From Planctomycetaceae bacterium (GTDB taxonomy: Bacteria; Planctomycetota; Planctomycetia; Planctomycetales; Planctomycetaceae): DNA of 64,000 nt. The notes under the pieces were generated by a model. The model did not search any database. It worked only from the letters and a program-made list of their open reading frames with translations, and was not told the origin of the DNA. This document shows positions 44,064-45,895 of this stretch, one piece after another. A program made the translations under genes and the position numbers. The stretch covers positions 1 to 64,000 of the forward strand of contig PBMZ01000201.1 in NCBI GenBank assembly GCA_002722955.1, given 5' to 3'. The first letter of the stretch is position 1. Each line of letters starts with the position of its first letter.

Positions 44064-45326
44064 TTAGGGGACGGACTCTTCCTCGGTGAACCAGTCTGGG
44101 AACGGGCCGCTTAGCTGAACGCGTTTGCCGTCTCGCCAGACGGTCAGTCGCACGGTGTCGCCGGGATCGTAACGACTGATTAAATCCGACTTGAATTCAT
44201 TCAGCGTTCGGTTCGGGTGCCGTCCGTTCAGACCAATGATGACGTCCAGCTTCTTCAGACCTAGGTTTGTCGAGAAACCCTCGCCACGCACCGACACGAC
44301 TTTCAACGCTAGACCAGTGGCCGGCAGTTTCATCTTTGCTCGCTGCGAGCGAACCAGCGGATAGCCACGCATCGCGAATGGCAACGGGGCACTGCGAATT
44401 GACTTCCGCCAGCCAAGATTAGTTTGCTTCCAATTCTCCGTCGGCTTCAACTTCGCCCGCACGATGGCCCCGCCACGTTCAAGCTCGAAGTCAATCTGGT
44501 CGGTCTTGTTTTTGTCCAAAGCCCATCGGATGTCGTACTCCGAGCGAATCGGAATCTGATTGATTCTACGGATCACGTCGCCGGCCTTCACGCCGGCATC
44601 CTTGGCGGCCGATCCAAATTTGACGCTCTTCGCCAAGAACCCATGTTCGTGGTCAATCGTAATGCCAACGTTCTCGGGCAAGGGAAATCGAAACAGTTGC
44701 CACCGATCGAATTTGCCATCGTGGTACGATTGTAGAATCCGATATTCCTTCACTTGGTGGCAGTGCACACATCCACCGTGGTTCTTGCGAAGCAAGGGTA
44801 TGTCGTGAGGCCGAAACGGTTGCTTTGGGATCGGCTGGAAGAACTTCTCACGACCATTGACGTCACTCTTCAACGCGAGTTGATGAACATCTAAGACTTC
44901 TTTCATGGTCTTCAGCAATGAAGACTTGCTCAGTCGAGCTTCTGGATCGCCGTGATCTCGGCCGCCGTAGCGGCTATAGACATTGAGCTGGCTGTCGAGG
45001 AAAAAGCTGTTCCACGTTACGTCATAGTCAAACTCGAAGCGATTTAAGTCGATGCCGTTCAAGCGAGTGATGCGCACGCAAACAAAGCTATCACGCATTT
45101 GCTTGATGTCGGTGTCTTCATGAGCAACCTGCCCATCCCAGAGGTAGCACTCTGGTCAGCGTTCACACCGAAAGACGACGAAGATCGGTTTGCCGGTCTT
45201 GGCAGATTCTTGCTGAGCAGTTTGCAGCGACGAAAGCCATCCCGGCTCGATCGAAAACGCGTTACTCGAAACAGAAAGCAAGGCAAGACTTACCACGCAT
45301 CCAATGCTGAGTTGTCGTGTCATCAT
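44064..45326 (-). CDS. Thioredoxin-like / heme c / PDZ protein, probable selenoprotein
   Basis: The product has 420 residues read through one in-frame TGA (45156-45158, residue 57). The ATG at 45326 overlaps the TGA of the upstream FHA gene (ATGATGA), so translation is coupled. Parts: signal peptide (1-24, ending SSNAFS), thioredoxin-like domain (27-140) with GKPIFVVFRC54-E-R-U57-PEC60, then FVCVRITRLNGIDLNRFEFD and DVTWNSFFLD, a heme-type CVHCH (186-190), and two PDZ-like domains (about 225-290, AGVKAGDVIRRINQIP; about 330-410, LGLKKLDVIIGLNG). U57-P-E-C60 takes the place of the CxxC active site. Read without Sec, the gene would be called a 344-residue protein from 45098, lacking signal and active site. 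The frame before the TGA is clearly coding, since it encodes a signal peptide and KPIFVVF; a chance open frame is unlikely. Confidence 0.85.
45127..45155 (-). promoter_or_regulatory. Candidate bacterial SECIS region of the thioredoxin-like gene
   Basis: Directly after the TGA on the minus strand, two alternative hairpins can form. CCAGAG/CTCTGG starts at the first base after the codon. ACCT...AGGT, with a CT bulge and an inner G-C pair, places the loop GGATGGG 18-24 bases after the TGA. The second has the bulge-and-G-loop design and spacing of bacterial SECIS elements. Tentative without folding and comparison. Confidence 0.45.
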
Positions 45327-45874
45327 TCGTCGTCAAACTTAAAAATGCCGTCTTCCTCCGACTCGCCTTCGTCCACGTCGTCGTCCGCAAGCGGAATCGG
45401 GCCTGATGAAGGATAGTTGATGGACGGCTCGACCATAAAGCTGTCTGGCTGTTCCGGTATAGCAACCGGAACTTCTTGACTAATATCTAGATGAGCTGGC
45501 GGCTTTGGCAACTTCTGAGGTGTAGGATGACCGCCGGGAGCATCTTCTTCTGCTGGCTCGCTTTGAGACTCACGGCCGGTCGAGAGTTCTTGGCGGACAA
45601 GATTGAATGGGATATCGCCGATCGACAATTCGTCGCCAAACTCGATTTCCGATTGACGCTCGATTCGTTGTCCGTTGATCCAGACGCCGTTCATGCTGCC
45701 CAAATCGCGAACCAGAAAACGGTTGTTGACGTTCGCGATACAACAATGTTTGCGAGAGATTTTGCGACTTGACGTCAAGACGACGTCGCAATCTGGGTGC
45801 CGGCCGACCAAAATGATCGCCTTATCGAGGACGATGGGACGTCCATCATTAATTGGCACCAAGGAGACAGACAT
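45323..45874 (-). CDS. FHA-domain protein
   Basis: The product has 183 residues from the ATG at 45874 (MSVSLVPINDGRPI), with GAGGGAG upstream; an earlier in-frame TTG is less likely. The FHA domain (about 8-95) has LVGRHPDCDVVL, SSRKISRKHCCIAN and VRDLGSMNGVWINGQRI, the phosphothreonine-binding core. A proline/acid-rich tail follows (DDDVDEGESEEDG near the end). FHA proteins read Ser/Thr phosphorylation, common in kinase-rich planctomycetes. Its stop overlaps the start of the selenoprotein candidate, so the two genes form an operon. Confidence 0.9.
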   Translation of the reverse strand: MSVSLVPINDGRPIVLDKAIILVGRHPDCDVVLTSSRKISRKHCCIANVNNRFLVRDLGSMNGVWINGQRIERQSEIEFGDELSIGDIPFNLVRQELSTGRESQSEPAEEDAPGGHPTPQKLPKPPAHLDISQEVPVAIPEQPDSFMVEPSINYPSSGPIPLADDDVDEGESEEDGIFKFDDE

Positions 45875-45895
45875 CTGCCTGGACTCCCTCAGCAA

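Follow-up and report, generated by a model that had tools for sequence, protein, structure and literature searches.

The closest described relatives of the gene analysed here have been recorded under several names. The 2008 Global Ocean Sampling survey reported a 'putative secreted serine protease MucD' with the motif CxxU, represented by two Sec and 12 Cys sequences (PMC2398784), a 2022 review has an entry 'PDZ domain-containing protein', assigned to Thioredoxin_7 and likewise with CxxU (PMC9312934), and the PDZ fusion has also been described (PMC9402790). Most recently, a 2026 review tabulated the family NF041199 with the motif CxxU and one Sec, and traced it to the 2008 ocean-survey paper as its reference 61 (PMC13188914). 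From this citation chain, rather than from a direct comparison of the alignments, we infer that the 2008 'MucD' selenoprotein and NF041199 are the same family. Our literature search found no biochemistry for the Trx7/PDZ family.

The gene described here lies on the minus strand of a 64,000-nucleotide stretch of Planctomycetaceae DNA, the whole of which we call the window. Judged by its profile match, it is an additional member of the named family NF041199, 'Trx7/PDZ domain-containing (seleno)protein'. When Cys is put in place of Sec, the protein scores 386.3 bits against the NCBIfam profile, above the curated cut-off of 300, and the match spans residues 29-406 and profile positions 2-387 of 390; all 29 members of our alignment A2, Sec and Cys forms alike, match the same profile. 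The original prediction had seen in this gene an undescribed selenoprotein family, a claim that has to be given up, as the protein matches NF041199, which is tabulated in two reviews (PMC9312934, PMC13188914).

Gene structure and domain layout

On re-reading, the minus-strand frame from 45326 to 44064 encodes 420 residues, and its sole internal stop is the TGA of codon 57 (45158-45156), exactly where it had been predicted. One frame is common to both sides of this TGA, which excludes a frameshift, as had also been argued from the outset. The features discussed below are as follows.

44064-45326, minus strand: Trx7/PDZ selenoprotein gene, 420 codons with a TAA terminator (NF041199, 386 bits against a cut-off of 300)
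45156-45158, minus strand: in-frame TGA, predicted selenocysteine 57 (frame translation and homologue codons)
45147-45167, minus strand: predicted redox motif C54-E-R-U57-P-E-C60 (alignment A2 and 100-sequence tally)
45252-45326, minus strand: putative signal peptide, about residues 1-25 (by inspection; unstructured and of low confidence in the model)
45054-45239, minus strand: Thioredoxin_7 domain, residues 30-91 (Pfam PF13899, 37.3 bits, cut-off 27)
44757-44771, minus strand: CVHCH, residues 186-190, candidate covalent c-type heme site (CxxCH in 100 of 100 homologues)
44448-44654, minus strand: PDZ domain 1, residues 225-293 (Pfam PF13180, 59.9 bits over two stretches; matches to DegP/RseP PDZ domains)
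44112-44309, minus strand: PDZ domain 2, about residues 340-405 (second PDZ_2 stretch; DegS/MamE-type matches at 340-405; strands in the model)
45323-45895, minus strand: FHA-domain gene, upstream of the selenoprotein gene, its TGA stop overlapping the ATG
45119-45137, minus strand: predicted bacterial SECIS hairpin (covariation, fold of its own strand and published model criteria)

Around codon 57 the translation reads GKPIFVVFR-C54-E-R-U57-P-E-C60-YLWDGQVAH, and this region, GKPIFVVFRCER-U-PEC, comes after the N-terminus MMTRQLSIGCVVSLALLSVSSNAFS, which looks, by eye, like a signal peptide. Pfam PF13899, PF13180 and PF17820 all score above their cut-offs. An exported Trx-type domain followed by two PDZ domains, as originally proposed, is thus what we recover: Thioredoxin_7 is matched at residues 30-91 and PDZ in the C-terminal half, with the signal peptide assigned by inspection.

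The start codon of the selenoprotein gene (45326) shares bases with the TGA stop of the FHA gene in an ATGA at 45326-45323, an overlap through which translation of the selenoprotein may be coupled to that of the FHA gene. The neighbours in the window (FHA, LRR and Gfo/Idh genes) are not conserved beside the orthologues examined, and the FHA gene was not found adjoining any of these. At eight of the 18 other loci, a large same-strand gene lies directly upstream of the Trx7/PDZ gene. The two of these eight that were checked with Pfam (L083:1104-3974 and L100:1054-3792) are MMPL-family transporters, the one at L100 bearing a PDZ domain of its own; no such MMPL-like gene lies directly upstream of the selenoprotein gene in the window.

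Decoding of the in-frame TGA

Our sample of distinct homologues numbers 100. Of these, 71 have TGA as codon 57 and the other 29 a Cys codon (TGC or TGT), and the expectation that homologues should carry C or U at this residue therefore holds throughout the sample. The TGA homologues are spread over many genera and several phyla, and ten orthologues from ten other genera, at 47-56% identity, have TGA at the same codon. Conservation spans the TGA (FRC-x-x-U-x-x-C, D64 and V67), the Cys homologues read straight through it, and C54, C/U57 and C60 are invariant in alignment A2. A Cys paralogue is present in the same genome (C11:18735-19886, L063), and the sole Cys orthologue of the close clade is L031, in genome G031. 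A quick tree of 96 homologues, which has weak deep forks and served for counting changes only, gave seven state changes among CUC, CCC and UUC, against about 31 with shuffled labels; Sec and Cys have therefore been swapped several times in the evolution of the family.

A candidate for the element that would direct Sec insertion lies close behind the codon. Seven base pairs, between 45136-45130 and 45126-45120, form a stem with the loop GGU (45129-45127), which begins 27 nt past the UGA. The published bSECIS model places the loop 16-37 nt from the UGA, with a G in the first two loop positions and a stem of 4-16 bp (PMC13188914), and the hairpin agrees with it in spacing, loop G and stem length. 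At least six of eight pairs can form in all 71 TGA genes, and five at most in all 29 Cys genes; in L031, the Cys form from G031, the hairpin is gone. Across 20 TGA genes, 91% of cells are paired and three pairs have changed on both sides, giving a covariation score of 0.339 against 0.201 for shuffled alignments (0 of 500 as high) and 0.151 at most when slid. The mean folding z against synonymous recoding is -2.0 in the TGA genes and +0.4 in the Cys genes. In the gene studied here, the hairpin has a z of -0.9 on the same measure, its outermost pair is broken, and alone it folds at -7.1 kcal/mol, compared with -7.5 for the published bSECIS model (PMC13188914); the 50-nt stretch from the UGA, which includes a second stem, folds at -16.3 kcal/mol. 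Rfam at the gathering threshold returned no match in the window.

Directly after the UGA, at 45138-45155, lies a perfect 6-bp hairpin, CCAGAG-UGCUAC-CUCUGG. We rejected it as the SECIS, being absent from the aligned orthologues and too near the UGA for the bSECIS model; it might tune read-through.

The same genome encodes selB (343 bits), selA (505 bits) and selD (273 bits), all over their cut-offs. On the other hand, selC (tRNA-Sec) was found neither by the Rfam model nor by a pattern search of the 79%-complete assembly, ARAGORN detected no tRNA-Sec near selA, selB or selD, and the single pattern match was discarded as falling inside a tRNA-Leu. Of the sel genes that the original prediction named, selA, selB and selD are present and selC was not found. 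Since the assembly is 79% complete, this negative result does not count heavily against Sec decoding, and selC is present in most relatives bearing the TGA form. More broadly, 20 genomes have a TGA form, and 19 of them contain selB scoring above its cut-off or a strong match to selC; among 42 genomes whose homologues are all non-TGA, the number is 11 (Fisher p = 2e-7, a descriptive value because the genomes were chosen by relatedness and related ones are non-independent). The sole TGA-form exception, G008, holds part of a selB-like gene, a fragment of 164 aa. In G031, the genome of the Cys orthologue L031, no selB above cut-off was found, and no strong match to selC. As for selD (L020 / L077, G000:C183), its open frame is 744 aa long while the match takes up only about 305 codons, and it may therefore be fused to another domain.

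SelB, acting on the hairpin just 3' of the UGA, would bring Sec-tRNA, and the UGA of codon 57 would be read as selenocysteine. The presence of Sec in the protein is something that we strongly infer, and we hold Sec decoding, together with NF041199 membership, to be very probable for this gene. Could the TGA instead be a sequencing error, or a nonsense mutation in a Cys-type gene, which would make the locus an artefact or a young pseudogene? A single base change (TGC or TGT to TGA) would suffice and the assembly is fragmented, but a TGA shared by 71 of 100 homologues, with a covarying hairpin confined to TGA genes, makes this exceedingly improbable. A real stop at the UGA would leave a 56-residue secreted peptide and a separate PDZ/heme protein starting at ATG 45098; an ATG-started ORF of 344 aa does exist downstream, yet this start would halve the Trx domain after its active site, and with conservation crossing the TGA and Cys homologues reading through, such an arrangement has only a very slight chance of being right. 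Recoding of the UGA to another amino acid, such as Trp, found no support at all: homologues have Cys or TGA alone at the site, the upstream FHA gene terminates in TGA, and selA, selB and selD are present, leaving this reading a negligible probability.

A second in-frame TGA was seen elsewhere in the window, at 4275-4273 on the minus strand, within an ORF at about 4482-3869 (minus strand) for an exported AhpC/TSA-type peroxiredoxin. The translation reads ..AFTGGUTAQC.., with the TGA at the peroxidatic position, and a stem CGCUG-CGUGC-CAGCG lies within bSECIS distance and has G in the second loop position; the 50-nt fold is no better than shuffles. From its sequence, this ORF probably encodes a Sec-peroxiredoxin.

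Active site, candidate heme motif and proposed function

In thioredoxins, the nucleophilic Cys is found at the start of the active-site helix. Our fold model (pLDDT 91) has a strand at 48-53 and a helix at 58-70, with U57 just before the helix, and because of this arrangement it suggests that U57 occupies the nucleophile position (UxxC). U57-P-E-C60 also aligns with the CxxC/CxxS of solved Trx folds. The original prediction had put the TGA at the first CxxC position, and the model and the Trx-fold alignments speak for this, although the published motif is CxxU (C54-x-x-U57) and three positions, C54, U57 and C60, are conserved. Eight homologues have a second Sec in place of C54, and one of these has Asn in place of C60, which speaks against a simple answer; the active pair may be C54-U57 or U57-C60.

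The alignment position of the cis-Pro, which is Pro in 2l57 and TXNDC12, is taken here by Trp105 (45012-45014 in the window, minus strand), and this Trp is nearly invariant in the family alignment. Because the cis-Pro is replaced in this way, classical thioredoxin chemistry cannot be assumed and, as far as its sequence tells, the Trx7/PDZ protein is not a classical thioredoxin. Two in-frame TGAs, the first turning C54 into a second Sec (UxxUxxC), occur in L039, L069, L117, L120, L132, L144 and L154, and L134, labelled Abditibacteriales, has two TGAs with Asn for C60 (UxxUxxN). The two-TGA homologues have a single hairpin loop, 26 and 35 nt from the UGAs, and as the published range of 16-37 nt takes in both distances, a single SECIS could suffice for the two UGAs.

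Further along the protein, all 100 homologues keep C186, C189 and H190, which upholds the CxxCH of the original prediction. Most of them read C[IV]HCH here, although the middle His is not strict (CIRCH in L028 and L033). An invariant C..CH with a variable middle His speaks for a c-type heme rather than for a metal site with four ligands, and on this pattern we regard heme attachment at CxxCH as moderately probable. The C-terminal PDZ pair matches the PDZ domains of DegP/DegQ and RseP by sequence and by fold.

We propose that the gene product, as a selenoprotein of NF041199 (Trx7/PDZ), would be exported, and that Sec57, at the start of the Trx-type active-site helix and between Cys54 and Cys60, would most likely be the nucleophile, forming and breaking selenyl-sulfide bonds with Cys54 or Cys60. 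The PDZ pair would probably hold a peptide or protein, be it substrate or partner, and the invariant CxxCH would probably bear a c-type heme, which could give electrons to the thiol/selenol centre or take them from it. A thiol/selenol redox role seems likely to us, and coupling of the heme to the selenol is a tentative suggestion that we would not expect to hold.

What else might the CxxCH be doing? The strongest competing account, although we still think it the less likely one, has it bind a structural metal or form a redox disulfide, and takes the protein as a plain PDZ-guided envelope selenol-disulfide reductase or isomerase. There is only a single CxxCH, the prevalent C[IV]HCH offers an extra His, and we know of no heme-dependent activity in the Trx7/PDZ family; against this, the variable middle His beside a C..CH kept in every homologue is the pattern expected of heme c, and the protein has the look of an exported one, a requirement for attaching a c-type heme. 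A different and rather unlikely possibility is a peroxidase-like enzyme or sensor, in which peroxide oxidises the selenol, the heme or PDZ domains relay the signal, and the Trx domain takes no part in protein-disulfide chemistry. Trp105 fits this, standing in for the cis-Pro that shapes protein-disulfide recognition in thioredoxins; however, no peroxidase motif is present, and the third Cys (C60), which would suit a resolving thiol, is missing from only one of the 100 homologues. Extended to the family as a whole, that is, a selenol site coupled to a c-type heme within one exported, PDZ-guided protein, with some lineages placing two Sec in UxxUxxC under a single SECIS, the proposal is speculative and on balance doubtful. 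If true, it would describe an unusual selenium-heme redox module, possibly with a diselenide or three-chalcogen centre, and lacking the cis-Pro.

Comparison with described systems

On comparative evidence, the Trx7/PDZ selenoprotein gene spotted in the first reading of the raw sequence appears to be real, and standard gene calling would truncate it. The family now has a well-supported, covarying SECIS, and the puzzle that it poses is biochemical, concerning the heme, the three redox positions and the two-Sec variants, and not the presence of Sec.

Set beside known proteins, the C-terminal PDZ pair shares the fold of that in DegP, DegQ and RseP, whereas the Trx7/PDZ protein has no protease domain. 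This bears on the 'MucD' selenoprotein of the ocean survey (PMC2398784), which resembles our protein in its CxxU motif, PDZ homology and Cys homologues, but whose name reflects PDZ similarity alone. With 2l57, AGR2 (TMt 0.67) and TXNDC12, the protein shares a Trx domain and the placement of CxxC/CxxS at U57-x-x-C60; unlike them, it carries the extra C54, Sec57, a Trp for the cis-Pro, the CxxCH and the PDZ domains. Closest of all is NF041199 as tabulated: the domains follow in the same order, Sec falls at the equivalent position, Cys homologues occur in both, and no essential difference separates them; yet the published motif is CxxU where our fold model suggests the Trx-type pair U57-x-x-C60, and where the tables give one Sec, some of the homologues collected here have two.
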